Below, in pieces: positions 1-32,922 of a stretch of DNA of 64,000 nt. A program made the position numbers and the translations under genes. Source of the DNA: Hericium rajendrae (lineage: Eukaryota; Basidiomycota; Agaricomycetes; Russulales; Hericiaceae). Location of the stretch: NCBI GenBank assembly GCA_033439255.1, contig CM065886.1, positions 248,001 through 312,000 on the forward strand, read 5' to 3'. Numbering within the stretch: position 1 is the first letter of the stretch; each line of letters starts with the position of its first letter. The notes beneath the pieces are model-generated. The model saw only the letters and a program-made list of their open reading frames with translations. It searched no databases and had not been told where the DNA came from.

Positions 1-2800
1 TTTGAACGCACTGGAAGATGAAGGCTTCCTCGTGATCTGCTATATCGTCACGCTCTGAGGATGCATCGTCGGGATTGTATATATTGGCCAGGTGCGTGTA
101 CACCTCCCTGTTCCGCTTTGCCCAGGATAGGAACGGGCTATGCAGCTTGCTACGGAGCTCAGCATCGCTGCCATTCAGAATATCAAGGAGAGAATTGCGT
201 GGCATGCGAAGTTCGCGTTCTAGCCTAATCATAATTCAGTACAAGCCGCTACGTCGGTCGAACATCACACTCACAGCATATTGTATGATGTTACTTCGTC
301 CATTCCTCCAACATAGAAAAGAGACAACATCGCATCCCAATCATGCCTACCTTCTGCTTCGAGCTTGTTTACTGAGCCTGTACTTCGAGTGAAGGCACCG
401 TCGGCGCACGCGAGTAACAAAGAAAGCTTGCTTTTCATGATCTCAGCATGTTTCTCATCAGCGTATACCTTGGCCCATGGTTCTTCGGAAACCTGTCGAT
501 ATTGATTATAGAGCTCACCCCGGAGCCCGTCGAGGGCAGAACCGACCGGGGGCAGCTTCTCCTGCAACACGGGATGAATTCGCTGCGAAGATGTCGTCGA
601 CATGACGTGGACTTACTGATGTCGTCCACTCTTTGACCCATCTGAAGGATGTGAGGTCGTCGTATAAGCTGCACATCTCCTCGAACTTATCTTGACCCTT
701 ATACAATGGCGGCCTGCTGCGTTCATCTTTCTCGAATATGTAATTTGTGTCCATAAGTGCCGAGCGGTGCACCAGCCAAGTTATTATGGACGGATCGGGG
801 GTTTCGATGCTTCTCTGGGGTTTCAACTTCGCAAAACTGCATCGACAACACATCATAATATGCACTAGCAGTAATGACACACAACTCACGCGGAACAGGA
901 CCAGGCCTTTGTTTTGGACTCAATACTTGATACTGCGCTGCCTGCCTTGTTGCCTGCCTTCGCAGCGGGGGGTTTACTCGATACACTTATACGATATAGC
1001 ACGTCAGCCCAACGGACGGCGTGGAGAGCACAATGCAAATGAAGAACTTACGATGGCAATACCGACTTGCTGAACGGAGCAAACAGGGTCAACGGCGGAA
1101 CGAGCAGATTCCTGAGAATACTCACGACCGTGTTCTGGGTTTTCCGTCCACAGGTAAGGTCCCACCTTTCGTCGTCGTCGTCTTTTCTTTGGGTGCCATC
1201 TGGTCCTCGGCGAATGAAGACTCTGGTGTGAGAGGATGGATTTCATCGGAACTGTCAGTCGTACTAATACCAAAAAACATGCATCAGCTGCGTGCCATCA
1301 AGATTCAGGAACCACGAACCTTGAGTCGTCCGACTTATCGATGTCCTTTGCCCACTCTTCGATGTCTGCGGTCCACGTTCCACGATCGTAATCCGAGCGC
1401 CATTCAAGCCTGTGGAGTTGCGCGCGAGAGATACTGCTCCAAATACCCAAGAATTGAGGACGCAGCGCGAGGAAAAACTGGGAGAATAGAAGCGAAGAAT
1501 GCGGGTGCGCAAGATCAAAGACGCCTTGCACAGCCGCCGCTTGGGCTGTCAGCCCCGAGACATTGCCGGCTGGCTTAATGATATGCACGATTGGCTATTG
1601 TTCTCTGTAAATGGGAGGCTTCTTTAGAAGCACCGACTCACTCACCAGTCTTCCATCATCGCTTGGAGGATCTAGCCAACCGATGTACACGCGGACGCCG
1701 GATCCGATAGCAGACACCTCGAGGCCCACCACAGGGAGCTCGATGCCCCATACGCGCCGTTGATAGGCGACACTCGCAATGTATGCGACAATATTGCTCG
1801 AGTCTGCGATACAGATGACAGGGAAATGAACATTCGGCCAGACACGCTGCCCTGTCAGAATCTGCGTATACAGTGGAAGGTCGAGCACGGGCTTATCCCC
1901 TTGCGGTACCCTCCCGGCGTGTCGATCACGTATGGCCTGCAAGTGTTCTGGGTTATAGAGTTGATGTCCCGTATCGGCGTACCATTGGAATGACTTTTCG
2001 GAAGTGTTATCTTCATTGCTGCTGCTTTCACCGTCTTCGTCGTCGGGATCAGTGGAGGCAGGCTGAAGCAATTCGTCGTCTGTACAATGCTCTTCTGCAG
2101 TATCACCGGGAGTGCCGTCGTCGTCACCATCATCGTCATCATCATCGATGTCGTCACTGTCGCCGTCACCGGCGGACGGGCTGATGTCGGAGTCGTCATC
2201 TACATCCAGCTCCACCGTATCGCCTGTAGCCGAGGGCTGTGTGGCGTCCAGGGAGAAATCTAGGCGACTGCTTTGCATCTCTTGCAAATGTAGAATAGAG
2301 TCATCTGCCACGAGTGAGATGAGCATCGTCGCGACGCCATGGTCGGCGTCGAAGCCTTTCGGCCAGATAAACGGAACTGAGACGCTGCGAATCTGAGCAT
2401 CAGTAAATTTAACATACAGAGACAAATTGCCATACCTAACAGAGCACTCTTCATGGCATACACGAGCTAGCGTCCGAAACAACGGAAACATGAACATGTC
2501 CGTACGCCTGCGCTCCCCGCCATCCAGAGCGATTCGGGCGCAGTCAGCCATGGCCGCAGACGTCATCAAGACCAGATTCAAAACATCCTGTAGCAGGTCT
2601 CGATCTTGACTTTCACCGTCTACATGACAATTCTGCAGAGATACTTCCTCTAATTGGCCTTGAGCTATGGAAGATAAAGTGGAGCGTTTGATGTGGGCTA
2701 GAGAAGCGGGTAATGGCCGAGAAATTAGCTGGGATAACTCGCGTACATCCTGCGGTACGTTGTCTAAGTCTTGAAAGGACGTGTGCAGAAATACAGACAT
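1..2800 (-). CDS. Large acidic-linker protein, copy A (partial, runs off left edge)
   Basis: This is copy A of a large gene family found three times here (see 17659-21228 and 25168-29100). The start is the ATG at 2800 (MSVFLHTSF). Exon 1 is 2800-2436 and ends in a split AG/C codon; exon 2 runs 2384-1646, and its GTGAGT donor is at the same place as in the other copies. Exon 2 holds the conserved FIWPKGFDADHGVATMLISL stretch, an Asp-rich linker (about residues 195-235), and the LPLYTQILTGQRVWPN and GIELPVVGLEVS blocks. Further exons (about 1594-1300, 890-620, 600-270) match the YADEKHAEIM and EAEGRHDWDAML blocks of copies B and C. The C-terminal domain lies beyond the window. No lesion was seen, but only two junctions were checked in detail. 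The function is unknown. Confidence 0.75.
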
Positions 2801-3317
2801 GGTAGGTCGAAATTGGAGTAGGAACGATAGGAAGGACGCAAATGGACCAGGAAGTCAAATGATGAAGCTTGAAGCTTGAAGCTGAAGATGAAGACGAGTC
2901 TCGAGTCTCACTATAGTTGTGTATGCCGGCACAATGGCGCCCATTTACGTTGTGAACGGCCCGGCCCGGTGCAGTAGCCGGCAGCCATTGTCATTCTGAA
3001 GTTTCAGTTTTCGTTATCCTGGGATTCCTGGCATCCTGCCTCTTCTCAGTCACAAAGCCATCTCGAAGGTTTATCGTATTTCTGCTATTTGACGAACGCA
3101 AGCGCTGACGTTATGGCCCAAAAATCTGCCATAAGTCGTTCAAAAAGACGCTCATCTCTATCTCGCATCATCATGGCCTTTATCAATTGCAGACGTCGAA
3201 TGAATGCTTCCTGAACGTTGACAATAGGTCAGACTTGGAAGTACTGCTCTTCACAGTCAAGAGATACTCCTCAATTTGACGAGGTACGTCTTACATTGAC
3301 GTATTACCTTCCACGGA
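2801..3317. promoter_or_regulatory. Upstream region of copy A
   Basis: This gap lies between the start of the copy A gene and the SDR relic. On the minus strand near 2920-2950 it keeps the GGCGCCATTGTGCCGGCA-type segment that also lies just upstream of copies B and C (about 17565 and 25045). That conservation suggests a shared core promoter; this is inference from the three-way similarity. No coding sequence was seen. Confidence 0.4.
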
Positions 3318-4048
3318 CTCAAAGCAGAGAAGCGCCGAGGCGTAATGCCTGACCGCCGATGGTTATGACACGCAATTCGGCATCAACGTTCTGGTGCGCC
3401 ACTACTTATCACCCTGCTCATGCCCGTATTCCTCGACACCGCGAACGCAAGCCGACACGCCGACGTGTGGGTCACGGTGCTCACACCGGCCGCGCACGAA
3501 CTGACGACGCAGCTCGACTTCGCGACCCTGCGCGACTGCGGGAAGCGCCAGAAGAAGGGCACACAGTTTCTGTACGGGAAGAACGAGTTTCTGCGTGCTC
3601 ACTCTTCTGTCTCCAGAATGCATATTTTAATTCAGAGTTGCTTCCCAGGAAACCGTGCTGCTTGCCAAGGAGCTACAAGGACCAGAGTGTCCTATCCAAT
3701 TGCGTGCTCGCAGACGTCGTCAAGGCTGATTCTCAGCGGCACTTGACGCGTTTACAGCGTTGGTTCCTCTTACTTTGAGAGAGCAGCATTCTGATTTGGG
3801 ATGGACAGGACTTACTGCTGTACTGTGTGTCGAACTGCGTCCTACGTCCCTCTATGCCGCGACGGCCCTCGACTCCAGAGGCGTGCATGGTGCAACACGT
3901 ACCTGCTTCTGTTCGTTGTGGCTCGGATACTTCTCATCTTGACAGTACTTCATGATCTGGGCATGCCTCGGAAGAGCCCATAGCGGGACTGAGGATCCGC
4001 AGCTTGTTCAGGCCCTCGGGACCTGGTCGGAGGAGCAGGTCAAAAGAC
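3318..4048 (+). pseudogene. Short-chain dehydrogenase relic, copy A
   Basis: These are scrambled-frame remnants of an SDR (Rossmann-fold NAD(P)-dependent oxidoreductase) gene. Recognisable pieces are GYDTQFGINVL near 3360-3392, the AARTTQLDFATLRDCGKRQK-like segment with TQFLYGKNEF (the YxxxK active-site region, about 3500-3590), a VLADVVKADSQRHLTRLQRW tail near 3700-3765, and a DPQLVQALGTW-like C-terminus near 3990-4030. The first third, with the nucleotide-binding TGxxxGIG, is absent, and the pieces lie in different frames. It is divergent from the copy A large gene, as the SDR relics of copies B and C are from theirs. Confidence 0.8.
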
Positions 4049-4500
4049 CTATGAGCAGCCGCATCGCCCGTGCTGCCCACACATACCACAGACAACATGT
4101 GCACTGCATTGCGAAGTGATCAATGTTGAGGTGTCAGTTTCCTTTTTGCAGTTGATTGGGAAATATCAGGCCATCACCTACAAAAGCATCATATAATGGC
4201 TTGAAGACGGAGTACTCGGTATGCCGGACGAAAGTTGAACTTTCTTAATATCGATAGAGTACCTCTAGCCCTCCGAAACGGAATTGTAGTGATCTTGAGG
4301 AGAATATTGATCTTCTGATCTAAAGTATGTGTGGAAGAACTTGAAGTCGCGAGATATGTGAATGCCCAGAGGTAGCTGTAACATTATTGGTGCTTGTGAG
4401 ACAAATAATTGGTGCCAAAGACTATTCCTGCTGCCCACTTATCCCAGGCTGTAGCAAGACTGAACTTGCTCGAGCTTAATCGATACATCCTGAGGAAAGG
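4049..4500. other. Intergenic, nothing recognised
   Basis: Between the SDR relic and the tRNA gene I see no convincing coding or RNA feature. Confidence 0.5.
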
Positions 4501-4509: not shown

Positions 4510-4528
4510 TCCGGGGGAAAGCCGATGA

Positions 4529-4610
4529 TGACCACCGCAGGGGTCGAACCTGCAATCTCCTGATTCCAAATAAATCGTAGTCAGACGCGATGCCATTTCG
4601 CCAGGCGGCC
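4529..4610 (-). tRNA. tRNA-Arg(ACG) with a 10-nt intron
   Basis: Read on the minus strand this 82-nt gene folds as a tRNA. The 7-bp acceptor stem (GGCCGCC with GGTGGTC, two or three GU pairs) is followed by discriminator A at 4529. The A box TGGCGAAATGG and B box GGTTCGACCCC are perfect. The anticodon stem TCTGA/TCAGG encloses CTACGA plus a 10-nt intron inserted after the base 3' of the anticodon ACG, so it should read arginine CGN codons after inosine editing. The order of A box, CTACGA loop and B box resembles the tRNA-Arg(ACG) of yeast. A Pol III T-run follows. The intron makes it a substrate for the splicing endonuclease and the ligase encoded next door. Confidence 0.92.
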
Positions 4611-4815
4611 ATGATTTCCACATAATAGATGTAGAAGATCTTTTCGCCCCACGGTAGTCGACATTTTCGTTGTCGAGACCTTGAAGTGTTGATCGTAGGA
4701 CATGCTGTGCTTGAAATATATCATACGAATTGAAGATGGCTGAGCTTATGCATCGATGATAAGCGTATGAGTACTGGCTAGCGTACAAGAAACATAGGTA
4801 TATGCTGCTCTTCGT

Positions 4816-7419
4816 CTAGACAAGTCCCTTGATTCTTCCACTCACATAGAACTCTGCGACTGGCACAGTGACGATGTCCTCCCGATTTGCGTCCTTCCTC
4901 CACTCCTCCACCAGGTCCTTCGCCTCGACAGGATTGACACTGCTGTCCTTGGTACCAACGGTGATGTGCAGTCGACTCCGTATGTCAGGGGGAAGCGTCG
5001 CAAGGAACTCATGCCCGTGTTGCCCATCGTCTTGCTCCGGGTTCTGAAGCTCGAGATCCTCGACCACGGCCGCCATGATCCGCTCGTTGCACACGACGTT
5101 GCGCACAGCGAACTTGAACAACGGAGGACTTGAGAGCTTATGAAGAGCCTCGCATGTTTTCCACAGGTTCGGTTCTTCTTCGCGGGTCTTCAAATGGACG
5201 ACAGTGACATGTGGCCGCTTCGCGACACGCTGATCAGCCATCAAGTGCTGCCAGAGTTCTCTCGCCTTCTGCGGCACATTTTCCTCCTCGAACGCAGGCC
5301 CCAGAGCATGCTCGAGTCCCACTTCCGCCATCAACGCAAAGTACCGCGGCGGAGGCGGGCCCTTTATCTTCGTCTTCGCCTCCGGCTGTTGTGTGCTTGG
5401 GACATAATTTCTTGCGACCGCGAGCGCCTCCCCGATCTTCTCTCTGCTCGGCTTCTCGAGCCCGAGAATGCGCACGCAGCCGTTGACCGCGCGCTCGACG
5501 GCGTCCTCGAGGGACTCCGTGAGGTCCATCTCGATGCTCGCGTCGACCTCGTTGTCTGAAAGCTCCTCGGCGGTGTTGATAAAGTGCCAGATCACGTCCT
5601 CGTGCGTTTTGGCGAGCGGATCCGCACGCAGCGTCTGGTGGCGGTCGCCGCGCTCGTAGACGCGGTCTCCGCAGATGCGGGCGATTGTCGAGAGCGGCTG
5701 GTCGAACGACCAGTTCAGGGCTAGGAAGCGTGTCGGTGGGTGGTCCTTCTTGGTGAGATCGCGCAGTGCTTGGCGATGTTGGCGGAGGTGGTTGTTCCTT
5801 CTCATGTGGTCAGAAAGGTCACTCCTGTGAGAGAAATACAACACACTTGTCTGCAATCACTACATCGTAGGTCTGGAGCAGTTGCTTGACATTTTTGATG
5901 AAGGCAGGACCAGCCTTCTTAGCACGGACGTCATCACTCTGAGTGTGTCCGAAACCAAAGAGATGCACGAGTGCAACGGCGATAGTGGTTTTGCCTGGAG
6001 AGTCAAGATCAACTCCTAACCAGTCAAGGGAAAATGCAGACTTACCGCAGCCAGGAATGGCGACCGGCATGATGATTGTCTTCCCGAACTTCTTGCCATC
6101 TGCACTCCCCGACACATCCTCCCGAGTGCGCTCCAGTTGCTGCTGGCCCTTCTTTCCGGTTTCTGATTCCATATAAGCCAAGAATCTGTTCCTCGTCCCA
6201 ATGATGCCCTTTCCCTTAGTGTAGTCCTTGAACTGCATCTTATCCCGCTTGATCTCCTTCGCCACCCAGTCTACGTACAGCCGCGTCTCGGGGCGCGTCA
6301 TCTTCGACTTGGGAATATTCGCCGCCACAATCGAGCCATTCGCCGCGAGCAGCTTCTTCGTCGCCTCGCGCCAGTCCCGGTACATCATGTACGGCTCGTC
6401 GAACTTGACCTTGAAAAAGAACGAAGAGCCCGCTTTATATGGCGATGCGCCGCGCCCGCCCCTGCTGCCCGTTGGAGGCTCGGAAACAGTGGTGCGCACG
6501 ACGAAACCCTCGAGGGCCTCGCCCTGCCATTCGCCCGTCCTGGAAATTTCCTCGGTAAAGGACTTCACTTCGGGGATGGTGTTCAGGACTGTGAAAGGGG
6601 TAGGGATAAAACCCCATTCCTTGGCGAAGGCGATGACGAAATCGGGCGGCATAGTCTTGAAGTTCCTTGAACATTCGTTGAGGCCATGTAGACGGAGGCC
6701 GGCCTTCTCGGGTGGGTAGGGAAGGACATGTTCTTCAAACGAGTCATCGCAGAGCTGGCGGGAACGTTGTGAGCCATTTGCGTTATTCCGTATGATACAG
6801 ATAGCAAACCTCAAGGACAGCGGTCCAATTATTGTCCCAAAGTACTTTGGCAAACTCCTGGGTCGTCTTTCCTGCGGATTCGAGGTGCGTGTGAAGCCAC
6901 CGTTCGCCTGCTTCGGCATGGCTCTCAGGCTGGCCTTCTACTGGACCCAGCGAGTGTTTTGAAGTCACGACCAGTTTGGAGGGCGTTAACGCCGCGCTGA
7001 AGATAATGCAACCATTAGATTTGAGCGTGAGGAGATATGGAGGTTTTGTATGAGATTCCAGTGAGCCCCACTAGGGCGAAGATTAGCTCAATGGATGGGA
7101 AAGCGAATGAATGACGCACTGCTGTCCATGGAACCTCTCCGATGTTGAAGAACTTGTCGTATCCACGAGCTACTATACGATACCTTCTTGATTTGCCCTC
7201 CTTGTCCAGCTCGGTGGTAAACAGTCCGCGCGCAAGGGTAGGAAAAGGAGATGGAATGTCGTAGTACTTGAACTCGTTCATTTTCCAACTCTGGATGATC
7301 ATCTCCGGAGCTGCAGGGGCATTGTATTCCGAGTAACGAACGAGCTTAGGTTTTGATTTATGCAATCGGAAGAGCTCCTCTATGAGTTCAGAGTCGTCTG
7401 GGTCGAAAACGGGTGCCAT
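4816..7419 (-). CDS. TRL1: tRNA ligase (fungal Trl1 type)
   Basis: This multifunctional RNA ligase joins tRNA halves after intron removal and, in fungi, also splices HAC1/XBP1-type mRNA. Five exons were rebuilt (7419-7120, 7070-6810, 6754-6046, 5994-5847, 5797-4816), giving 799 aa; all junctions are GT-AG and in frame. The N-terminal adenylyltransferase domain has YDKFFNIGEVPWT and the nucleophile lysine in LKSNG (codon 7022-7020). The central kinase P-loop, PGCGKTTIAVAL, is split by intron 5995-6045. The C-terminal cyclic phosphodiesterase domain has both HxT motifs (HVTVVH and HITVGT). Length and order fit the family. The ATG at 7419 opens MAPVFDPDDSELIEELFRLH. An intron-bearing tRNA gene lies about 200 bp past its stop. 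Confidence 0.96.
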
Positions 7420-8013: not shown

Positions 8014-10375
8014 ATGGATGACGAAACGGCTGAGATTGAGCTGGTGCGTTTCAGGTCCTTTATGTGTTGCCAAATTCTGACGAGGGAATACAATCACGAA
8101 TAGCTGGAGCAGAATCTAAACAAGACACGCCAGATTTCGCAGCGGATGACCTGTGAGTCTCGACTTCATTCCGCGCCGTGCTAGAGTTCTCACATTGTCC
8201 AGCAATATTGACCAGCTTCGACGGTCGACTGGTCAAACTTGAGAAATCCATCTTGCCATTGTATAACTCAACACAGATCCTGACGAAGCGAGGAAACAGT
8301 ACGTATCACTTCTATATGAGTTGTCCATTCAACTCAACAGTGTTGAAGATATCGAAAGCGCGCTGCAAAAGATCTATGAAGTTGCGAGCAATCAGGAAGG
8401 AATTGCCGCAGAAGAGGCATTGATCCTCCGAGGGTAAGTTCTGTGTGTGCCTCTCGAACGCTGATGCCTGACACCCGCCAAGTCCTCAACCAGAACAGCT
8501 GCAAACATATACAGATGCTCTGGAGCGCTTAAACGCAAGCATAGCATTCAACTCGCTAGACCGAGATTCACGAGATACGGTAATTTCTTCGGGTTCCATC
8601 TGTTAGCTCGACCTTCTGACCGAATTGATCGGTAGGCCCGCCTTGTGGAGACCGGTGCCAAGAAGCTCGCACAGCTCTTCACCAAGCTCGTCGCTGAGGG
8701 TTCATCAGGTTCACCCCCCGGCGGGCCTGAATTTGAACCATCACCTCTCCCCTCATCCATCCTCGCGACTCTACGACCGCTCGTCGCCTTCCTTCGTCGC
8801 CTTCCATTACCGTCTACTCACCCTTCTCACCCTGCAGCCAACGCGATTCTGTCGACTCTCAAGGATGCACAGCGGGGCTTTGCTGACATGAGAGGTAACT
8901 GGGGGAAGAAATGTCTAGAGATGCATGGGCGCAGAGTCGTGGAGCGTGCCGAAACACTCAATGGCATTGCGGCGGGAAAAGAGCTTGGGAAATGGTTGGG
9001 CCATTTGCTTGATGTCATCGAGGTAAGTCTCGAATATCGCTTTCAGAAAGTACGGCGATCTAGATGTCCTCTGTCTATAGGATGAGTACGCCCTCCTCAG
9101 GGAGCTTGCGCCGCTCCCAGGCTTGTCCAACCTCACGTCTGCCTATAACACCTTCCTCACTCCCCTCATCACCCTCTTCAATTCGACTCTCTCGTCTTTA
9201 TCCTCTCTCATCAAGCGATCGCTGCACCGCTACACCTTCCTCGCGCTCTCTGCCTATGGCTCGCTGTCGGCGGCCCAAGGGCGATGGGACGAACTCATCA
9301 CCCGCCGCGCCGAGCGGAAGGAGAACGAGCTCAAGGACAGCTTGCACGCGCTGCGCGGCGTGTGCCTGCGCAGCTTCCCCGAGTTCCTCGCGGACGTCAA
9401 GATGGCCGCGCTTGGAAAGGGCGGCGAGCTCGGGACTGGGCTTGCTGATTTCACATCTTCAGTAGGTGTTAATTGGTTTCCGTGCGCATACATCGCCTGA
9501 CCCTCGTTGACAGACGGTGAAGTATCTTGAGCAGATACCAGAAGTGCGAGATGCCGTTGGCTCTGCGCTGCTGACGCTGGGTGACGGGAACTGGCGTATG
9601 GGCGACGGTGTCCAAGTGAACAAGGGCCCGAAGCTGGCGGAAGGAAACGAGAGGATCATACTGGAACACTACGTTTGTGAGTCTTTCGTCCTGATTCTAG
9701 TGTTCGCTGCCCGAATGTATTATGTGCAGATGACGTCGTGTCAACGACGATCACTAGCCTTACGGCCCTCTCGCGCACATCACGCCGACCGGCCTTTGGC
9801 TCCGTCTTCCTCCTGAACAACATCTCCTACCTGCGCGACCAGCTCCTCAAGCCCCGCGCGCCGCTCTACATTCTTCTCCCGCGTCCGACTCAAGACATGC
9901 TGAACTCAAACTTCCGCACTGCCAAGGCAGGATACTTCGACTCGAACTTCTCGCCGCTCATCCAGGCGCTGGCGGACGACAAGGACAAGGTCGGTAGCGG
10001 GAGCAAGTCCGCGACGAAGGAGAAGTTCACGCGGTTCTACGATCTGCTCGAGGAGGTCAAGGAGCGGCATAAGCTTGCGCGTGTTCTGGAGGATGACGAG
10101 GATAATCGGGAGATGTTGGCGGACGAGGTTGTCAAGCTGGTGGTTCCAACTCTGCAACGGTTTACGCAGAGGCAGAAGGAGAAGGAGTTCAGCAAAAGTC
10201 AGTGCGGCAGTTATAATCTTGACATTTGCTGATTCTGATTTTGCTCTGGAACAGATCCTTCGAAATGTGGGTCCCTGTATCTAAGTCCTGGTTACCTCGG
10301 ACTAACTGTCCTTTCGCAGATATCAAGCTCTCTCCGGATGAAGTCGAGGCTCAGATTCGGAGTTTTTACCAGTAA
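8014..10375 (+). CDS. EXO70: Exocyst complex subunit Exo70
   Basis: Exo70 is the exocyst subunit that binds PI(4,5)P2 and Rho GTPases and tethers secretory vesicles at sites of polar growth. The start is the ATG at 8014 (MDDETAEIEL). Eleven exons were rebuilt: 8014-8043, 8104-8152, 8203-8302, 8341-8433, 8483-8579, 8636-9022, 9081-9461, 9514-9676, 9730-10197, 10255-10266, 10320-10375, giving 611 aa, close to the usual length. The N-terminus is coiled-coil-like (LLEQNLNKTRQISQRM). The conserved NNISYLRDQLL and C-terminal YIKLSPDEVEAQIRSFYQ are typical of the family. The third junction is the weak point: a GTACGT at 8299 looks like a better donor, but only GTATCA at 8303 keeps the frame, giving a 38-nt intron. 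Exon 10 is a 12-nt microexon. It converges on the SET gene, 60 bp away. Confidence 0.93.
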
Positions 10376-16930: not shown

Positions 16931-17658
16931 CTTCGCGTTCTTCCGATATTTGGGGATAGGATGTTGGTCGAGCAGACATTGCACATAGTCCAATATTTAT
17001 TTCCCCCGTCGTACGAGTCCATTGTCGTCGTGCGCGAGCCAGCACGACGTCGACGCGATGCCCTATGATTTATCACCCTTCGCGAGGGCATGTCAACGTG
17101 CTTGACGCGCCTTGTCTTCTGAATGCGCTCACGATAGGCAGAAGGAAGAATTGTGCCGGCCTACTTTCTTTGAAGATTTGCATGCCGCGACGACGCGTCA
17201 CTCGCCCGGATTGCGTCCATTGCGAGATATGTGCCCATCGTGTGCGCGGCTTCTTGTAGGCCACCGCTCTATGAAAACACAACGATGTGCACTGGTAGAT
17301 CAAATAGTGTTGAGAACACTTCTGCGACGGACTCGTCAGATCTGACGGGTCAGCATATGTACGATGTACGGCAAATTCTTGTGCTTTTATCTAAAGGACC
17401 ATAATATCAGCATTTATGGTCATCAGAGCGCTGAAATGACAGACGTTCGAGTTGGCTTTGTGACTGAGGAGCTCGAGAAGAGGCAATATAACAAAAAGCG
17501 AAAGCGGGATGATAGTGACCGTCGGTGGCCGGTCCCGTCCGGTCCGTTAACAACGTAGACAGGCGCCATTGTACCGGCACAACGCGTTCAAGCCTTCTTC
17601 ATCGACATTCTGTCCATCTGCATCCTTCCCACCTTTGCTGCCGCAATTTCCATCTACC
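16931..17658 (+). promoter_or_regulatory. Upstream block of large gene B (conserved with C)
   Basis: This is the divergent region between the SDR pseudogene and large gene B. The part at about 17430-17580 is nearly identical to 24907-25065, including a short reading frame that begins MTDVRVGFVTEELEKRQ. In B that frame stops at 17558; in C it runs on into the main ORF. The block is therefore likely promoter plus 5' leader. No TATA was called in B. Confidence 0.5.
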
Positions 17659-21228: not shown

Positions 21229-21609
21229 ACCAGGTGAAAGCGGTGGCTGACTCGAGTAGTTGGCGAGCAGATGTAGGATCAATAAGCGTGAGGCGAAGCA
21301 CGACGTTACGGTCTATGTATGATAATGCTGGGCAACGCGTGTATTTGCATGATTCGATGTACAAAGATGTACGGTCCATGGGTTTCAATTCGATATCTGA
21401 TACTGCCAGGACGAGGATAGCCGCTGCTCGTTATACGAGATCGCATACCACCTTCGAGCGTCTGAGGCGCGACGCTGCTCATGAGCATGTCCAGTGCTCT
21501 ATGATTTATTTGTGATGCCGACGATATCTCGACAATGCGTATGCATGTTATTATAAGGGTCCTATTAAGTACTCATGAAATTGAGGGCTCCCGGCCGGTT
21601 TCTATGTCG

Positions 21610-22029
21610 TCTGAAAATCATATTTCGCGTTTCCTGCCAGCCTCGCGCTCCTTATAAATGCTCGAGTGCATGAATCGCGAACAGCCCAATCAACAGCATC
21701 TCGATGACCAAACCCTTGTTCACTAAGCCCTCGGCGCTCCGAGAACTCTTTCGCAAAATCGGGTTCGACATGCAACTCGACGAACGCCTCACACATCGCA
21801 GCACCTGCTCCATCGATGCAAGCCGGAGTCGAACCGTGAGCGGACATAAGAGAGTGGGTCCAAACGTACGAGTATGCACATAAGTGTGAGGTCCCAGCTC
21901 AGGCTCGACCTCGTCATACCAATGGTCCTGCATGAACCCGATGGGATCCGCACAGATCTGATCCCACTGATCTTTATGTTGCACGACGAGCTCATTCGCG
22001 TAGGCCTCAGTGATGCCACAGGCAATCAA
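21610..22029 (-). pseudogene. Relic of small conserved gene, copy B
   Basis: This is the counterpart of 29779-30204. It starts MIACGITEAYANELVVQHKD and stays in frame through EVEPELGPHTYVHTRTFGP. It then loses one base relative to copy C (about 21850-21870) and continues in another frame as MCEAFVELHVEPDFAKEFSE. A further 13-nt loss removes codons after the DAVDWAV block. It is therefore non-functional in this form. The family is not recognised. Confidence 0.75.
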
Positions 22030-22479
22030 TACTGGCGAACACCACCAATTTATTTATAAGCATTCGGTATAACAACTGGGTACCTGCCTTTGAGGGTCTC
22101 AGATGCCATGATTATTGTATTTGCAGGTCGTAAAGGGTGAGAATAGCGTTGATGTTCTGGAGCAGACGTGCGTGTAGTATTGGGATGAATGTCAGGAACC
22201 AACACGGACTCGCCACCTCTCGTCACGCATCATGAGCTTTATCAATGCATCTAGACAACCCAGCAATCGCGGACATCAGATGTTAAACCCGTGCGTCGAG
22301 CGTTGAATGAACCTCCAAGCCTGTGCTCCGCAACTTTAAACTCTATCCGGCACCGTACTTACAACAGGGCATCACGTACCGAAGCACACATAGAACACGA
22401 AGTCGTGGAAGTCGTAACCCAACCCAACCAAACCCCGAGCCACGCATCTAAAACACACCACCATTCGTCCATCCATAGA

Positions 22480-23683
22480 TCACACATCGTCCCCCCGCCT
22501 CGCCAAAAACGCACCAACGTCCCGCTTCGCGCGCGGCCCCCCGAAGCCCGTGCTCGGAAACCCGCCGCCGCCTCCAAGTCCGGGACTCGGGAACGCGGGG
22601 TGCAGATCGTTGGGAAAGCCCTCGAATGCGGGCTCCTCGGTGTGCACCGCGAGCGCGGGGCGCGCGAGCGGCGGCGGGGACGCGAGGCTCGACGACTCGT
22701 GCGTCGTGAAGTGGCTGGACGCGGAGGATTTGGCCTTTGTGCTGCGTTTGGGGCGCAGCGCGGCGGGCGCGGGGATGGGCGCGGGCTGTTGTGCGCGGTA
22801 GTGGCAGTGCGTGTCGGGCTGGTGCGTGGTTAAGCGCGCACCAGACGAGGTGGATTGGGAGCCAGAGCGGGAGCGGGAGCTGTGCGTGCTCTGGCGCGGG
22901 CGCGCGCAGGTGTATGCCTCTGCGTCGAAGTCGCCCATTTCCTCTTCCTCTTCGGCGTGTGGGTACGGCTGGTCTGGGACGTATGTCGTTGGAGATGGGA
23001 TGCTCTCCGAGCCGTATGCGCTGCTGTAAGGCGAGTTGGAATATCCCGGATATCCAGGACCGCTGCCCTGGAAGCCCTCGAAATCGCCCTCGCCAGCCTG
23101 GGCGAGCGACAATGCGGCTGCCTTTGCGGCTTTCCGCTCGCGGCGGCGGGCACGGCGCTCGGCCTTGGCGCGCTCTTCCTCGGCGGCTTGGGCTTTCTGG
23201 GATGCGAGGCGCGACGCGATGGTGTTGGCGTCAAGCGGGGCTGCGTCGGAGATGGCGTCGCTGGAGAGGGTGGACGACGAGTGTGCGTGCGATGGGCGCG
23301 ACTTGCGCCGCCGCTGCCTGTCCGCTTCTACTTCCTCTGCTTCATCGTCGTCTGGCAGCTGAATGGTGCCCCGCGGCTTCCCAAACAGATCCCACCCCCA
23401 CATCCGGATGCTCTTCCCGCCGCCCAATCCGAAACTCCTTTTACGCCGCCGCTGGCGAGCTGCATCGCCGATGCTGGAGTGTAGCGATAAGGTTTCGCCA
23501 TCGGCAAGCATTGAACGCGAACTGCGCGCGTCAGCGAGGAGAGAGTTCAAGGTGTGGTGTCGACGATTTGGCTGGCGGTAAATGCAGGCGCCCACTCGAT
23601 GAACAGGCGATGCATGGTGCAAAACCGGCACGAAATGAGCCGCACCATGAGAACCCTACGGTATTGTCAAAGTCATCAGCCAT
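22480..23683 (-). pseudogene. Low-complexity protein gene, copy B, with a +1 frameshift
   Basis: This is the counterpart of 30659-31855. The ATG at 23683 opens MADDFDNTVGFSW, but one extra base near 23546-23550 (GTTCAAGG where copy C has GTCGAGG) puts a TGA after about 50 codons. Downstream, an open frame of roughly 360 codons reads the same protein as copy C (SLLADARSSRSMLADGETLS to FLARRGDDV). It could be rescued only by an internal or alternative start. Otherwise it is a recent pseudogene, as the rest of the frame is open. Confidence 0.75.
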
Positions 23684-23929
23684 GATGTACGACAATCTTG
23701 GTAGCTTGCTGGCGGTGTCCCTGCAAGATTCGTCTCAGGAGGAAAGCGGTTTTCTGGCGCTGCAACGCACCTAGGACCAACTCGATCAACGTTTAGCAAG
23801 TTGAGTGACTACAGGCGCTGCAGCTGAGCCTGCTTTGAATGTTGCGAGGCTGTTCCTGTCAGCGACGGCCGCTGGATGAGGATGAAGTTTAGAAAGAGGT
23901 TAAGCATGGAGTTATGTGATTGATCCATG

Positions 23930-24400
23930 CAAGATGTACCCGTTCAAAATGAGAAGGTTCAGCTGCGTCTTTTGACTGCGAAAAAATCATACCGATTAAC
24001 ACTCGGCGAGGTTCAGCGCACGAGTGCAGACTCACTTGAGGAACTCCTCTGCGGAGCGCTTGATCGACTTGAGGTTGCCCAGATCCAGGTTGACGAACCG
24101 CGCTTCGCGCCCCGTCTCTGCCTTGAGCTCCTGGATCGCCTCGTGTGCCTTCTTCTCGCCGCGCGATGCGATGTAGACATTCGCGCCCTTGCTCAGCAGC
24201 ACCTGCACCCCCTAGTATCAGCTCCGACTTGACGCGAATATGGAGAAGCCTGATGCTCACCTTGACAGTCTCATTGCCGATCCCTGCGCTCCCGCCCGTA
24301 CAAGCGCGACCTTTCCCAACAGGTTTGGGATATCACGAATGCCCCATTTCGGCTTGGGCAGGGAAGACTCGTCCCAGAATACAGAATAGTAGTTACCCAT
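23930..24400 (-). pseudogene. Short-chain dehydrogenase pseudogene, copy C (truncated)
   Basis: Only the first half of the SDR gene is present. It starts at 24400 (MGNYYSVFWDESSLPKPKWG). A one-base deletion in the cofactor-binding segment (near 24297) changes the frame, so the TGGxxGIG motif reads RAGAQGSA. The second exon and its GTGAGT donor are fine, and the sequence ends at the duplication junction after QLNLLILNG. There is no catalytic Tyr/Lys region. Confidence 0.85.
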
Positions 24401-25167
24401 ATTCGCGTTCTGCCGACAAGATTTGGTGATAGGATGTTGGTCAAGCACTGCACGTAGTTCATTTATTTTCCCCGTCGTACGGGCCCGTTGTCGCCGTGGC
24501 TCGCCAGAAGGACGTCGACACGGTATCCTACGTTGATTTATCACCCTTCTCGGGGATACGTCAATGTCCTTGACGCACCTGTTCTTCCGAATGCGCGCTC
24601 ATGGTAGCCACAAGGAAGTATTTTGCCGGCCTAGTTTCTTTGAAGATTTTCAAGCCGCGACGATGCGTCATTCGCCGGGTTTGCGTCCATGCGGGATATC
24701 TGCCCATCGCTGCGTGGCTTCTTGTAGGCCACTGCTCGATGAGAACATGACGATGCGCGCTGATAGATTAAAGAGTGTTGAAACTTGAAACCACTTCTGC
24801 GACGGACTCATCAGATCTGACGAGTCGGCATATGTATGTTATACGGCAAATTCTTGTGCTTTTATCTAAAGGACCATAATATCAGCATCTGTGGTAACCA
24901 AAGCGCTGAAATATGACAGACGTTCGAGTTGGCTTTGTGACTGAGGAGCTCGAGAAGAGGCAGGATAACAAAAAGCGAAAGCGGGATGACAGTGACCGTC
25001 GGTGGCCGGTCCGGTCCGGTCCGTTGACAACGTATTTAAACAGGCGCCATTGTGCCGGCACAACGCGTTCAGCAGTTTCAGTTCAGTACAAGTGGTCTTC
25101 ACCGTCTTCATCAACATTCTGTCCATTTGCATCCTTCCCATCTTTGCCGCCGCAGTTCCCAACTACC
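24401..25167 (+). promoter_or_regulatory. Upstream block of large gene C, TATA-like box at about 25034
   Basis: This block is conserved with 16931-17658. A TATTTAAA sequence at about 25034-25041 lies some 130 bp before the ATG. In copy B the same spot reads TAGACA, which removes the box and closes the upstream reading frame. The frame beginning at 24913 (MTDVRVGFVTEELEKRQ) is continuous with the main ORF in C. Since the TATA-like box lies inside it, I favour the downstream ATG at 25168. Confidence 0.5.
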
Positions 25168-25810
25168 ATGCCAGTCTTAATCCACACGTTCTCCCAAGAC
25201 ATAGACGACGTACCGCAGGATGTACGCGGGTTGTCCCAGCTGATTTCTCGGCCATTACCTGCCTCTTTAGCTCGCGTCGAACCGTCCACTTTATCTCCTA
25301 TTGCACAGGAACAGTTGAAGAGTGTATTTATGCAGAAACTCCATGTAGATGGAGAGAGACAGGATCGAGAGCCGCTAGAGGATGTTTTGAATCTGGTCTT
25401 GATAACGTCTGCGGCCATGGCTGACTGCGTCGGAATCACTCTGGATGGCGGAGAGCATAGGCGCACAGACATGTTCACGTTTATTCTCTTTCGGATGCTC
25501 GCTCGCTTATGCCACGAAGAAGTCTCTGTTAGGTACGTCGATACGCCTCTCTGTTGAATTTACTGACATCCAGATTTACAGCGGCTCAGTCCCGTTCATC
25601 TGGCCGAAAGGCTTTGACGCCGACCGTGGGGTCGCGACGATGCTCATCTCACTTGTGGCAGACGAGGCTACCCTCCATCTACAAGAAATGCAAGATAGTC
25701 GTCTAGATCTTCCGTCCCCACACGCCACACAGTCATCGGCTACAGCCGATGCAGTGAGGCAGGATGTACGCGACGAGTCCGAAGTCAGCCCGCCCGCCGG
25801 TGACGACGAC

Positions 25811-25842
<32 letters not shown>

Positions 25843-28800
25843 CGACAACGACGACGACGACGATCACGACGACGACGACGACAATAACGACGATCACGAC
25901 AATAACGACGATGACGACAAAGATGGCAATGTCGACAACGATGGATCTTCTGATAATGCTGCAGAGGAGCAGCATACGGATGTCGATGTTCTCTCTCAGT
26001 CTACCTCCGAAGACACTGACACCAGCGACGAACGCACTGAGGGCAGCGGCAGTGAAGATGGCACCTCCGAAGAGTCATTCCAATGGTTCGCCAATGCGGG
26101 CGGTCAGCTGTATAACCCAGAATACTTGCAGCAATTTCATGATCGTCTCGCCGGGAAGGTGCCGCAGAAAAAGGAATTACTGCTTGATCTTCCGCTTTAC
26201 ACACAGATCCTCACGGGGCAGCGCGTCTGGCCGAATGTTTTTTTCCCTGTCATCTGTGTTGCAGACTCGAGCAACATTGTCGCGCACATCGCTAGTGTCG
26301 CCTACCAACGGCGCGTATGGGGCATTGAGCTTCCTGTGGTAGGGCTTGAGGTGTCGCCTGTCGGATCTGGCGTGCGCGTGCACATCGGCTGGCTAGACCC
26401 TTCAAGCGATGATGGAAGACTAGTGAGTGACCCATTGCTTCTAAAGAAGCCTGCCATTTACAGAGAACAATAGCCAGTCGTGCACACGATCAAGCCAGCC
26501 GGCAGTGTCTTGGGGCTGACAGCCCATGCGGCGGCTGCGCAAGGCGTCTTTGATCTTGCGAACCCGCATTCTGCTCTCCTTTTTTCCCAATTCTTCCTCG
26601 CGCTGCGTCCTCAATTATCGGGTCTCTGGGACAGTATCTCCACTCGGCGACTTTGCAAACTTGAGTGGCGCTCGGACTATAATAATGCAACGTGGACGGC
26701 AGATATCGATGAGTGGGCAAAGGACATCGATAACACAGACGATTCGAGGTTCGTGGTCCCTGAATATTGATGGGACGCACTTGACACATGTTTTTTGGTA
26801 TTAGTACAACTGAAAGTTCCGATGAGATCCATCCCCTTACACCAGAGTCATCATTCACCGAAAACCAGATGGCACCCAAGAAAGAGAAGACGGTCTTGAA
26901 AGGCGGGACCTTATCTGTGGACGGGAAGCCCAGCACACGATCGTGAGTGTCCTCAGGAATTTGCTATGTTCCGCCATTGACAGTGCTTACTCCATCCAGT
27001 ACATCGGTACTGTCATCGTAAGTCCTCTGTTTGCGCTGCGCTTCCTATGGAGCCCGTTGGGCTAACGTGCCACGTTGTATAAGTGTATCGAGTAATCCAG
27101 CCTCTGCGAAGGTGGATAGCAAGGCAAGCGGCGTAGTATCAAGCACCGAGTCGAAGACATCGGCTTGGTCTTGTTCCGCGTGAGTGCTTTTCATATCTAC
27201 TAAGGCCTGTACTTACTGTTTTCGGTGAAGATTTGCCAAGTTGGAAGCCGAGGACAACCTCAAAAGCCCCGATCCGTCCATAGTAACTTGGCTGGTACAT
27301 CGCGCGGCATTTCTGGAAACAAAGTACATCTTCGAGCCAAAGAGCGAGCAACCATTGTATAACGATCAACATAAATTTGAGGAGATGTGCAAATTATACG
27401 ATGACCTTACATCCTTCAGATGGGTTAAGGGGTGGACGGCATTGGTGAGTGCGCATCCTCAACGATATCTCTATCACAAGTTGATCCTGTGTTTCAGGAG
27501 GAAATGCCTTCGGTTGATCCTGCGCTCGAGGATCTCCGACGTGCGCTCTACGATCAGTATTGCGAGGTTTCCGAGGAACCATGGGCTCAAGTCTACGCGG
27601 ACGAGAAACATGCGAAGATCATCGCCAGCAGGCTTTCTTTGTTACTGGCTTGTGCGAAAGGCACCTTTACTAGGAATTCAGGGCCTGCGAATCCTCTCGA
27701 AGCTGAAGGAAGGCACGACTGGGACGATATCCTATCTTATTTCTATGTTGGAGCAGAGGACGAAGTCTCGTCGTACAACATGCTGTGAGTGTGATGTCCA
27801 ATCGACGAAGTGTCTTGTACTGAACTACGATTAGGCTGGAACGCAAACTTCGTATGCCACGCAATGCTCTGCTTGATATCCTGAATGCGGACAAGACTGA
27901 GCTCCGTAACGAGTCGCACAGTGCGTTCCTGACCTGGTCAAAGCGGAACAGGTTGGTGTTCAACAACCTGGCAGAAGAATACGAAGCTCATGTCCGGAAA
28001 AAGGATGAGGCCTCAGCTCAATACCGAGCCTTTCACGACCAATGCTTGGATGCCCTCAGTGCAAGCGTGCGCTTGTCAAGTGAATATATTGATTTGTTGG
28101 ACAAACCTGGTGCGCTCCATGGAGTTGTGAAACCTCAAGCTGACCTTGAGCCCACAAGCGGGACGTGCGATGCTGTGCTTTTTTCTGCTCTGCCCTTGGA
28201 TGCTGCTGGTGCCGATATTCGAAAAGCATACAAGAATTTCAGACTCGTTATTGCCAATCCAGACACGTCCGACGGGCCCGCTATCCCGAAGAGCGCTGGG
28301 CAAAAGCTCCCTCATGCGTACCTGCATCCTCTCACTACCCATGGCGCAAATCGAGATACTGCGAGAACACGTGGTACACGGTTCCAACAGACGGCGCCGG
28401 ACTCTCGCACACTTATCAGCGACACGCACATTCTTCTTCCCCAACTCATTGCGGAGTACAAGAAGGTGGCCGATCAGGAGACCAAGGCTCTGAATCAAGA
28501 CAGAATGTACTTGGTCGCGGCGGTTGACTTCTACGCTGCTGTCGGCATCAAGGAGTATCCCGTATTCGGCTTAGCTGTCCACGGAAGTATCGGAAATGTG
28601 ATCATGGCTTGGAAGGCGGAGAACGGAGTCAGTGTTCACCATTTATTTCTGCCTGCAATATGACTTATGTACGTGGCCGGTCCCAGGCAATCCATATCCT
28701 GGAGCGCAACATCAGGAAGTTCGACCTGGCTAATCCTATACAGGCTGTCATGTTTGCGTTTTTCTTGCTGCGGCTCAAGGACTGCGAGGAAGACCTGAAG

Positions 28801-29100
28801 AAGAGGTTTGAGACGTGCCAGAAGCAGCTTGCTGCAGATCTGTCGAAGGGCACGTATAAGGACTGGGCAATGCCTGAGACGAAGAAAACCTACACGAAAA
28901 GTGCCGAAACAAGCTCCAGGAAAGCCTCCAGGAAAGCCTCCAAATCTCGGGAGGCAGATGTCCCTGTGAATGCTAGTGCTTTGTCGCGCGTGGTCGAAGA
29001 GGCCAATGAGACTTTGGCAGGGATGCTGGGAGATTTACATCTCGATGCTGCGAAACCCCCTGCGAACCCAGCAATCGACAAGAACCCCAAGAAGAACTAG
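25168..29100 (+). CDS. Large acidic-linker protein, copy C
   Basis: This is the complete copy C. The ATG at 25168 opens MPVLIHTFSQDIDDVPQDVR. Exon structure follows copy B, including the intron after DGRL (GTGAGTGACC...AATAG) that otherwise reads through to a stop at 26473. Domain order: N-terminal helical block (1-130), FIWPKGFDADRGVATMLISL, a long Asp/Asn-rich linker (25801-25925), LPLYTQILTGQRVWPN, the KPAGSVLGLTAHAAAAQGVF block, YADEKHAKII, EAEGRHDWDDIL and the C-terminal domain (LPQLIAEYKKVADQETKALN, RMYLVAAVDFYAAVGIKEYP, ILERNIRKFDLANPIQAVMF). The Lys-rich tail ends DKNPKKN. The E-x-K in AEYKK fits a nuclease-like fold by inference only. An alternative start at 24913 would add 85 residues. 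Confidence 0.78.
25801..25925 (+). repeat. Imperfect (GAC/GAT/AAC)n trinucleotide tract coding Asp/Asn
   Basis: About 40 codons are almost all GAC, AAC, GAT or CAC, encoding an Asp-rich linker. Copy A has a shorter Asp run at the same place and copy B none. This fits slippage expansion after duplication. Confidence 0.9.
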
Positions 29101-29429
29101 CACTGTGAAAGCAGAGGCCAATTCAAGCAGTTGGAATGGGATTGGAGCAGCTAGAGGATTAGTATGTGCGTGAGGCGAAGCAGGACATCGTAGTGTATGT
29201 ATGGTAATGCCGGACGACGCGTGTATTTCATGTTTCAGTACCCAGATATACCTTTACACAGCATGGATTCAATGATGCCGGGACGAGGATATTAGCCACG
29301 ACCCGTTAGTGCTTGTTAACTGCGTCCCTTGCAAGCAATATGACAAAAGAAGCCGCTCGTTGAAACTTGACATGACAAATGGCATCGCCGGCACGCATCT
29401 TTGGCGAAACGACGATGCTTTGGATGTGC

Positions 29430-29730
29430 AATCCAAATTTAAAGCGAGACTGCCGGAGCTCGTCTGCATATAAGCAAGATGGACATTGTCTTACCGCAGC
29501 TCGTCGAAAGAAGCCAGAAGAGCCGGAGATGAAGGCACTGAATCAAGCCAGGATGTACTGCGTGTACTGCGTCACCAAAATTGTCTACCTCGCCGCCGTC
29601 GGCATCGAAGTGCGCGCGAGGATAAGACACTCGTACTTCACGGTCTGGCGAACGGCCGAAATGGTCTGATGTTAAGTTACACCAAAATGCCTGGCATGAG
29701 ACATCTACATGCTGCAGTGATCTGCAGGAT
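29430..29730 (+). pseudogene. Fragment of the large-gene C-terminal domain
   Basis: Short out-of-frame pieces match the C-terminal domain of the large genes: DIVLPQLVERSQKSRR in one frame, and EMKALNQARMYCV and YLAAVGIEVRARI in another. It lies just past copy C and has no counterpart after copy B, so it is a separate degraded copy. Confidence 0.7.
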
Positions 29731-29778
29731 ACGCTCGGCGAGACGTTAATGCTCTCACTACAATATATCATCTGAAAA

Positions 29779-30204
29779 TCATGCTTCGTGTTTCCTGCCA
29801 GCCTCGCGCTCCTTATAAATGCTCGAGTGCATGAACCGCCCAGTGATGGCGAGAACAGCCCATTCAATAGCATCTCGATGCCCAAACATACGTTCATCAA
29901 GCCCCCGGCGCTCCGAGACGTCTTTTGCGAAATCAGATTCGACATGCAACTTGACGAATACCTGACACATTTCGGCACCTGCTCGATTGATGCAAGCCAG
30001 AGTCAGACTGTGAATACGTATAGGCGAGTACGGTCCAAACGTACGAGTATAGACATAGGTATGAGGTCCTAGCTCAGGCTCGACCTCGTCATACCAGTGG
30101 TCCTGCATGAACTCGATAGGATCCGCACAAATCCGATCCAACTGATCTTTATGCTGCACGACAAGATCGTTCGCGTAGGCCTCAGTAATGCCACATGCAG
30201 TCAA
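29779..30204 (-). CDS. Small conserved protein of unknown function, copy C
   Basis: This open frame of 141 codons (MTACGITEAYANDLVVQHKD...EAGRKHEA) is the intact counterpart of the relic at 21610-22029. It is Asp/Glu-rich with one Trp-containing segment (DHWYDEVEPELGPHTYV); no signal peptide or membrane segment is seen. An upstream exon is possible, because GTACCC...CGCCAG (about 30259-30208) looks like an intron, but I could not join it in frame. The family is not recognised. Confidence 0.5.
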   Translation of the reverse strand: MTACGITEAYANDLVVQHKDQLDRICADPIEFMQDHWYDEVEPELGPHTYVYTRTFGPYSPIRIHSLTLACINRAGAEMCQVFVKLHVESDFAKDVSERRGLDERMFGHRDAIEWAVLAITGRFMHSSIYKEREAGRKHEA

Positions 30205-30658
30205 TACTGGCGAACACCATCAATTTATCTATAAGCGTTCAGTATAACAACTGGGTACCTGCCTTTGAGGGCCTCAGATGCCATGATTATTATATTTGGA
30301 GATCGTCAAGGGTGAGGATAGCGTTGATGTTCTGGAGCAGACGTGCGTGTATTGGCATGAATGTCAGGGACCAACACCAACTCGTCACCTCTCGTCACGC
30401 ATCATGAGCGTTATCTAGATTTTGCGCATCTAGACAACCCAGCAATTGCAGATATCAGACGTCGAACCCGCGCATCGAACGTTAGATGAACCTCCAAGCC
30501 TGTGCTCAGCGGCTTCAAACTCCATCCAATACCATACTCACAACAGGGTATCACGTACCGAAGTACACATAGAACACGAACTCATGAAAGTCATAACCCA
30601 ACCAACCAAACCCTCGCAACACGCATCTAAACCACACCACCATCCGTCCATCCATAAA
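30205..30658. other. Intergenic, conserved with 22030-22479
   Basis: This stretch matches the same interval of unit B over most of its length and shows no gene of its own, apart from a possible 5' exon of the small gene. Confidence 0.5.
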
Positions 30659-31855
30659 TCAAACATCATCCCCCCTCCGCGCCAAAAACGCACCCACGTC
30701 CCGCTTCGCGCGCGGCCCCCCAAAGCCCGCGCTCGGGAACCCGCCGCCGCCGCCTCCAAGCCCGGGACTCGGGAACGCGGCGTGCAGATCGTCGGGGAAG
30801 CCCTCGAACGCGGCCTCCTCCGTGTGCACCGCGAGCGCGGGGCGCGGGAGCGGCGGCGGCGACGCGAGGCTCGACGAGTCGTGTGTCGTGGAGGAGCGGC
30901 TGGACGCGCTTGATTTGGCCTTTGTGCTGCGTTTTGGAGTGGGCGTGGGGACCGGTGTGGGCTGGTGTGCGCGGTAGTGGTGGTTGTGGTTGGGCTGGTG
31001 CGTGGTGGAGCGCGCGCCGGATGAGGTGGATTGGGAGCCGGAGCGCGAGCCGTGCGTGCTCTGGCGCGGGCGCGGGCGGGTGTACGCCTGTGCGTCGAAG
31101 TCGCCCATTTCCTCTTCCTCTTCGGCGTGCGGGTATGGCTGGTCGGGGACGTATGTCGTGGGCGACGGGATGCTCTCCGAGCCATACGCGCTGCTGTAAG
31201 GTGAGTTGGAGTATCCCGGGTATCCAGGACCGCTGCCCTGGAAGCCCTCGAAATCGCCCTCGCCAGCCTGGGCGAGCGATAACGCGGCGGCCTTCGCGGC
31301 CTTCCGCTCGTGGCGGCGGGCACGGCGCTCGGCCTTCGCGCGCTCTTCCTCAGCGGCTTGGGCTTTCTGGGACGCGAGGCGCGATGCGATGGTGTTGGCG
31401 TCGAGCGGGGCGGCGTCGGAGATAGCGTCGCTGGAGAGGGTGGAGGACGAGTGTGCGTGCGATGGGCGGGATTTCTGCCGCCGCCGCCGCCTGTCGGCTT
31501 CTGCTTCCTCTGCTTCATCGTCGTCCGGCAGCTGAATGGCGCCCCGCGGCTTCCCGAACAGATCCCATCCCCATAGCCGGATGCTCTTCCCGCCGCCCAA
31601 CCCGAAACCCCTTCTGCGCCGCCGCTGGCGCGCTGCGTCGCCGATGCTGGAGTGTAGCGATAAGGTCTCACCATCGGCAAGTATCGAACGCGAACTGCGC
31701 GCGTCAGCGAGGAGAGAGTCGAGGTGCGGCGTGGAGGACTCGGCGGGCGGTAGGTGCGGGCGCCCACTCGATAAACAGGCGATGCATGGTGCGAACACGG
31801 CGCGGAATGAGTCGGACCAGGAGAATCCTACAGTGTTGTCAAAGTCGTCGGCCAT
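30659..31855 (-). CDS. Low-complexity Arg/Ser/Gly-rich protein, unknown function (copy C)
   Basis: This single-exon gene encodes 398 aa, from ATG at 31855 (MADDFDNTVGFSWSDSFRAV) to RRGDDV. A conserved-looking N-terminus with two Cys (FAPCIACLS) is followed by KSIRLWGWDLFGKPRGAIQL, a basic helix-forming stretch rich in Ala/Glu/Arg/Lys (about residues 160-215), a Gly/Tyr/Pro-rich region, and a Ser/Thr-rich tail ending in GGGGGFPSAGFGGPRAKRDV. It is probably a largely disordered protein. The gene has a frameshifted duplicate at 22480-23683. I do not recognise the family; the closeness of the two copies makes recent duplication plain. Confidence 0.7.
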   Translation of the reverse strand: MADDFDNTVGFSWSDSFRAVFAPCIACLSSGRPHLPPAESSTPHLDSLLADARSSRSILADGETLSLHSSIGDAARQRRRRRGFGLGGGKSIRLWGWDLFGKPRGAIQLPDDDEAEEAEADRRRRRQKSRPSHAHSSSTLSSDAISDAAPLDANTIASRLASQKAQAAEEERAKAERRARRHERKAAKAAALSLAQAGEGDFEGFQGSGPGYPGYSNSPYSSAYGSESIPSPTTYVPDQPYPHAEEEEEMGDFDAQAYTRPRPRQSTHGSRSGSQSTSSGARSTTHQPNHNHHYRAHQPTPVPTPTPKRSTKAKSSASSRSSTTHDSSSLASPPPLPRPALAVHTEEAAFEGFPDDLHAAFPSPGLGGGGGGFPSAGFGGPRAKRDVGAFLARRGDDV

Positions 31856-32922
31856 TTTGCGTCGTTGGTTGGCGGTCTCTGATCTGCCTGGCGGTCATGT
31901 CGAAATTCAGAGTGAAATTCGTTGCGTGCTTACCTATAGGTTACGAGCGGTCTGAGGTGACTCACGAACAGACGCAGTCAGACCTTGTTTGAACTTGGTT
32001 TTGAGGCTGTCCAGCGATGGCGGTCGTAATCAAGTTGAGTTTAAGAGTAAGTACGGACGGTGGGGAAGTACAGCGATCAAACACGCGACTGCGGGTCGGC
32101 CTCGGCGTCTCTTTCCGCTTCCGGCCCCCGGTCTGCCAAGTCAGGCTCTCTCGAGGTTCAAACGTTCACTCATGGCCTTCCTCTTCAACTCGTTGATTTT
32201 GTCCAGTTCAATATGCTATACTCAAATATGATAAGGTGGGGCCAGCCAAGACCTTCAACGAACTAGCACTTCAAGTAGGGTCGTCGTAGATCGACATGCA
32301 GGTGGCCTATACGAGGGTCGCCGGCTCGAGCTCAGCCTCATGTACCGAGTTTATGCTGCCCTGTACGCGAATCACTTGCAGCTGATTTATGGATATAGGT
32401 AATGCCTATATAGACTGACACTTCTTCGCGTTTGGTATGGCTGGTTGTCAAGACGCCTGATCGCTCCGAGTCAGCCAACTGTCAGACTCCTGACCACATT
32501 GACAGCATGTATGTGGCCCGGTACACAGAACGACGTCTATGTGCGAGGGCCGCCATGCATGGAGACCAGTTGGACTGGTTCACTCAAAAGAATAGGTGCC
32601 CCGCGCGGCTTACATGCTGAAGGACACGTAAGAATACACGACGCAGTACAGCTCCTCCACCGCCTGGGCAACATAACTATCTGGCCCCGACAACTCCTTC
32701 ATAGGTCTTGTCAATATCCTTAACGGAGGACCCATTTCTCAAGTCCTCCGCCATAGTCCCGCCTCGCCGTGGCCATAGCTGTTGGAGATCGCAAAAGATT
32801 GAATAAACCTCGTCTGCGGGCGGCGTATTCCTCTAAGCTTCGCAACTACGTTCGTCAGTCTCCCCGGCAGAAGCGCCGCCGTACGCGTCCTTTTGGACGT
32901 CCAGCACGTCACGCACATCATG
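31856..32922. other. Intergenic, no gene supported
   Basis: More than 1 kb with only short, poor ORFs. It holds the right end of duplication unit C, the promoter of the 31855 gene and the 3' flank of the membrane pseudogene. Confidence 0.5.

Follow-up and report, generated by a model that had tools for sequence, protein, structure and literature searches.

A local cluster of one orphan gene in Hericium rajendrae, with open, broken and mosaic copies

Copies of one gene block flank the TRL1, EXO70 and ATG18 genes of the basidiomycete Hericium rajendrae. How many copies are there, which of them are still intact, and did they arise in the genome or in its assembly? We analysed a window of 64 kb (bases 248001-312000 of contig C9) together with its left flank. 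The block very probably belongs to a local cluster of one orphan gene, that is a gene without known domain (here called the large gene), which grew by duplication and underwent birth-and-death evolution with exchange among its copies.

Copy number and layout of the cluster

The window was compared with itself by blastn (matches below 80 bases omitted), and the comparison was repeated with 50 kb of left flank added (114 kb in total, matches below 100 bases omitted). Genome searches covered 46,767,965 bases in 19 contigs. Coordinates refer to the window; a coordinate below 1 corresponds to contig C9 position 248000 + coordinate. Automatic gene models scoring below 15 were dropped, and spliced models of the large gene were built from an alignment of four copies. 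The features of the window are as follows.

1..2800, on to -1014, minus strand: large gene copy A, 10 exons, 1105 aa, no internal stop (alignment and spliced model)
3267..4064, plus strand: SDR remnant on the A side, 3' part only (self-blastn; tblastn, stops inside the match)
4527..4611, minus strand: tRNA-Arg(ACG), between the inverted arms (ARAGORN)
4816..7419, minus strand: TRL1-type tRNA ligase (Pfam RNA_lig_T4_1, tRNA_lig_kinase, tRNA_lig_CPD)
8014..10375, plus strand: EXO70 (Pfam Exo70_C 2e-40)
10831..13093, minus strand: putative SET-like (Ezh2-like) gene (sub-cutoff Pfam matches only)
13479..14942, plus strand: ATG18-type PROPPIN (Pfam PROPPIN 2e-49)
15672..16930, minus strand: SDR copy of block B, both ends present (adh_short 3.3e-18 in the automatic model; tblastn against the open SDR paralogue)
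16443..23683, plus strand: tandem unit B (self-blastn, block alignment, junctions)
17659..21228, plus strand: large gene copy B, 9 exons, 1046 aa, no internal stop (spliced model)
22480..23683, minus strand: last gene of block B, frameshifted close to the N terminus, with a conserved frame of 343 codons remaining
23907..31855, plus strand: tandem unit C, left end cut inside the SDR gene (self-blastn, block alignment, junctions, tblastn)
23912..24400, minus strand: SDR 5' remnant of block C (tblastn)
25168..29100, plus strand: large gene copy C, 10 exons, 1146 aa, no internal stop (spliced model)
29479..29609, plus strand: scrap of a fifth large-gene copy, most similar to D (blastn, tblastn with a D segment)
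30659..31855, minus strand: last gene of block C, open, 398 aa

Self-comparison revealed the tandem diagonal that a preliminary description of this DNA had proposed, with 16443-23683 matching 23907-31855 in five pieces (82%, 84%, 71%, 70% and 86% identity). B and C thus represent a 7.2 kb unit repeated in tandem, with an identity of 70-86% depending on the alignment piece. One end of the unit falls within the SDR gene and the other beside the start of the last gene, and no second copy of the sequence beyond these ends was found within the 114 kb. Both blocks had been credited with the same four genes, but they are not full repeats, since C has only the 5' part of the SDR gene.

The A arm, consisting of the large gene and an SDR remnant, is inverted relative to B, as had been noticed before: 87-3119 matches B/C with 72-81% identity, and 3267-4064 matches 16492-15662 with 72% identity. 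The gap between the inverted arms measures 11.6 kb (4064 to 15662) rather than the 13 kb given earlier, and contains the tRNA-Arg gene, TRL1, EXO70, the SET-like gene and ATG18. Among the core genes previously named here, TRL1, EXO70 and the ATG18-type PROPPIN scored above the Pfam cutoff; the SET assignment found sub-cutoff matches only (unspliced exon pieces, fungal Ezh2-like CXC with E 0.0015 and SET with E 0.17). In a DNA search, TRL1 and EXO70 each gave one match genome-wide.

With the left flank included, blastn detected four near-complete copies of the large gene within 36 kb, D and A on the minus strand and B and C on the plus strand. Copy D lies left of the window (about -6.7 to -3.2 kb), and copy A runs past the left window edge to about -1.14 kb, its coding part ending at -1014. 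The arrangement of two tandem copies and an inverted one described earlier therefore stands, but the number of three does not. The family has four copies, one of them (D) a pseudogene and another (B) a mosaic, along with the scrap of a fifth; the fourth copy, the scrap, the pseudogene state of D and the mosaic had all gone unnoticed before.

Searching the whole genome with the large-gene protein (E up to 0.001) yielded 29 exon matches, all 29 of them in C9:241344-277097, and the same interval held all eight matches obtained with the C-terminal region under an E threshold of 10. Since the protein search at E up to 0.001 missed the scrap at 29.5 kb, copy counts are lower bounds and other degraded copies may have been overlooked. 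The scrap matched D with 75% identity over 72 nt in blastn and with E 2.4e-10 when 551 bases were searched with a D segment by tblastn; because E reached only 0.008-0.023 over the 114 kb, its assignment relies mainly on the blastn match and this targeted search. Weak matches of the acidic tract at -32.7 to -29.8 kb (tblastn over 114 kb, E 0.006-0.77) were set aside as low complexity.

The models of A, B and C are open, and their 26 introns are all of the GT-AG type, 49-66 bases long and at corresponding positions. One intron of A and two of C end in AAG, and at one of the sites in C this weaker signal stands where A and B have CAG. Copy D is a pseudogene: it carries an in-frame stop in exon 1 and a frame-shifting 4-base gap in exon 2, and exon 4 is mostly missing. 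The earlier statement that the large gene stays open in all copies thus applies to A, B and C and fails for D. As a separate observation, exon 2 of copy C contains a long Asp/Asn-rich tract (25805-25960), of which copy A has a shorter version and copy B almost nothing.

Selection on the large gene and decay of its neighbours

Selection on the large gene had been suggested on the grounds that it stays open while its neighbours decay. We calculated dN/dS by NG86 with bootstrap ranges and obtained 0.31 for A-B (1040 codons, 0.26-0.37), 0.33 for A-C (1094 codons, 0.28-0.39) and 0.30 for B-C (1046 codons, 0.24-0.36), with similar total dS in all three pairs (0.62-0.67). All 27 indels counted within exons had lengths divisible by three, versus 2 of 20 outside exons (totals over three pairs that are not independent; the outermost 400 columns at each end of the alignment were left out of the count). 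Along the gene, dN peaked in codons 700-930 (0.34-0.38, with dN/dS of 0.32-0.53), and the highest dN/dS of any segment was 0.62 (A-C, codon 1060 to the end). Both the ratios and the frame-keeping indels support purifying selection on A, B and C, in line with the earlier suggestion, and the three copies presumably keep a cellular function.

The neighbours present a mixed picture. Only B has both ends of the SDR gene, C retaining the 5' part and A the 3' part, and the copy of block B appears to be disrupted mid-gene; an open SDR paralogue lies at 35431-36738 (Pfam adh_short 6.8e-29). Beside D we found an open F-box gene (499 aa, Pfam F-box-like 1e-05); the copy of this gene next to A has many stops in tblastn. 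Decay of the neighbours, as claimed before, is therefore borne out for the SDR copies and the F-box gene on the A side, but it does not describe the last gene of the block, whose B-C dN/dS of 0.16 (dS 0.30, 338 codons) is below that of the large gene, although the B copy is frameshifted. This low-complexity protein matched no Pfam family above cutoff (C copy searched), and a DNA search of the genome gave two matches, in B and C only.

Mosaic structure of copy B and origin of the cluster

Identity between B and C is not uniform along the unit. In windows of 250 columns it was 0.79-0.93 from 16443 to 19204, 0.58-0.79 from there to about 21067, 0.68, 0.65 and 0.45 in three windows up to 21586, and 0.82-0.92 from 21586 to 23689. 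Up to alignment codon 480, dS between B and C was 0.41 (0.32-0.51), versus 0.86 (0.71-1.05) beyond it, with non-overlapping bootstrap ranges; the same split changed little in the other pairs (A-B 0.63 to 0.71, A-C 0.56 to 0.66).

Informative sites in the four-copy alignment switched accordingly. At C positions 25160-26700, B grouped with C in 41 of 78 sites, and at 27860-28300 it grouped with D in 26 of 45 (chi-square p 1e-4; the stretches were picked after viewing the window results). Elsewhere the patterns were near even (17, 17, 16 and 25, 21, 19), so the exchange tracts have no sharp bounds. When the breakpoint was left free in a maximum chi-square test on the 194 sites backing either grouping, the observed value was reached by none of 2000 permutations, which treat sites as independent, and the best break fell at C position 27191. 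Judged by these patterns, B is a mosaic: its flanks and 5' half are close to C, and part of its 3' half resembles D. The simplest reading would be exchange with a D-type copy, by gene conversion or unequal crossing-over, and the D-like scrap next to C suggests that a D-type copy was formerly present on that side too.

We infer the following order of events. An ancestral unit of SDR gene and large gene would have been copied in inverted orientation to the other side of the TRL1-EXO70-ATG18 block. Next, the left arm may have been tandemly duplicated together with the F-box gene, giving D and A. Later, a tandem duplication of the 7.2 kb unit, with one cut falling within the SDR gene and the other a short way upstream of the last gene, would have given B and C. 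Sequence exchange among the copies, by gene conversion or unequal crossing-over, may have followed, and would have made B a mosaic.

Two other histories have to be weighed. The large genes of B and C could be old duplicates whose flanks and 5' halves were homogenised later, their 3' half having remained unexchanged or been selected to diverge. We regard this as possible yet rather unlikely: the similar total dS of all pairs looks as if the copies were of the same age, and the stretch of highest dN falls in codons 700-930, but import from a D-type copy accounts better for the resemblance of B to D at 27860-28300, and the 7.2 kb unit is tandem with its last gene included and has unrelated sequence past its ends. 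The second concerns the inverted arms. An inversion with staggered breaks leaves inverted duplicates at both ends, a mechanism treated in work on Drosophila, and the arms of A and B could be the scar of such an inversion of the TRL1-EXO70-ATG18 block. The block is indeed flanked by inverted arms of about 5 kb, yet a simple inverted duplication yields an identical picture, and we consider the inversion doubtful. That the blocks are alleles, two haplotypes of a dikaryon having been joined in one contig, is hardly credible: the genome of the edible mushroom H. rajendrae NPCB A08 was assembled from a dikaryon, but B and C differ by 14-30% depending on the alignment piece, far above the heterozygosity of 3.61% stated in the genome report (PMC10608310), and by 7-42% when compared in windows of 250 columns, those with poor alignment excluded, so that haplotype duplication does not fit, and against it stand also the single genome-wide matches of TRL1 and EXO70 and the different points at which the units are cut in the SDR gene.

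Identity of the large gene and other repeats nearby

Birth-and-death evolution with exchange therefore remains our preferred reading. Families of this kind contain tandem and inverted duplicates and undergo gene conversion, which is an ordinary route of gene-family evolution. The cluster resembles them in its local clustering, in open copies (A, B and C) beside a pseudogene and a fragment (D and the scrap), in a mosaic paralogue recognised by the pattern switch and the dS difference along the gene, and in purifying selection on the survivors. It differs in that the large-gene family has no recognised domain and that the copies found in this genome are confined to one 36 kb stretch. The type of event is well known; within the reach of these searches, the family is uncharacterised. 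Because its surviving copies are under selection, it merits a functional test.

What the large gene encodes was approached in several ways. Searched whole, as single exons and in pieces, it matched no Pfam family above curated cutoff (best sub-cutoff E 0.12), and a PDB search returned six matches with E 0.41-5.3. Two short peptide patterns gave 185 pattern matches in viral contigs and 119 in bacterial and archaeal genomes, with no relative confirmed in either. AlphaFold models of single exons had mean pLDDT of 44.5 (N-terminal exon piece) and 33.4 (C-terminal exon, all helix), too low for a fold search or for any firm statement about the fold. In the literature on basidiomycetes, we found no matching report of orphan families with gene conversion, or of Crinkler, FunK1 or REase.

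The C terminus offers one hint. All three open copies carry E-Y-K followed by a conserved A-L-N-Q-x-R-M-Y, and the broken copy D has lost the E and the K. The motif of PD-(D/E)XK (restriction endonuclease-like) proteins consists of a core Asp and then (D/E)-x-K, which E-Y-K resembles. However, the Asp upstream of E-Y-K is present in A and B and replaced by His in C, no Pfam match was obtained, and the C-terminal exon model, all helix and of low confidence, shows no such fold. Because copy C has no upstream Asp, a nuclease-like reading stays a guess. Improbable, though worth stating, is the idea that the large gene represents an undescribed, lineage-restricted fungal family, perhaps nuclease-like, in which several constrained, recombining copies provide useful variation in the 3' half, for instance in recognition of self or parasites.

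Other repeats occur in the vicinity. The left flank contains a second local triplication (about -44.9 to -42.9, -25.1 to -21.5 and -15.1 to -11.0 kb; 70-79% identity over the longer matches), and one frame of the triplicated segment looks kinase-like by eye. Inside the window, three diverged copies on the minus strand (33528-34071, 37810-38363 and 40457-40953; 65-66% identity) appear membrane-protein-like by eye. Between -31867 and -25798 of the left flank, a DEAD-box helicase frame (Pfam DEAD 3e-21) lies beside a DUF6589 gene (4.5e-48), a pair that may be of mobile-element origin. Short repeats in the same flank (-41545/-36873, 99.8% over 469 bases; -32121/-25524, 98.7% over 149 bases) are far more alike than the gene duplicates and are perhaps transposon ends.
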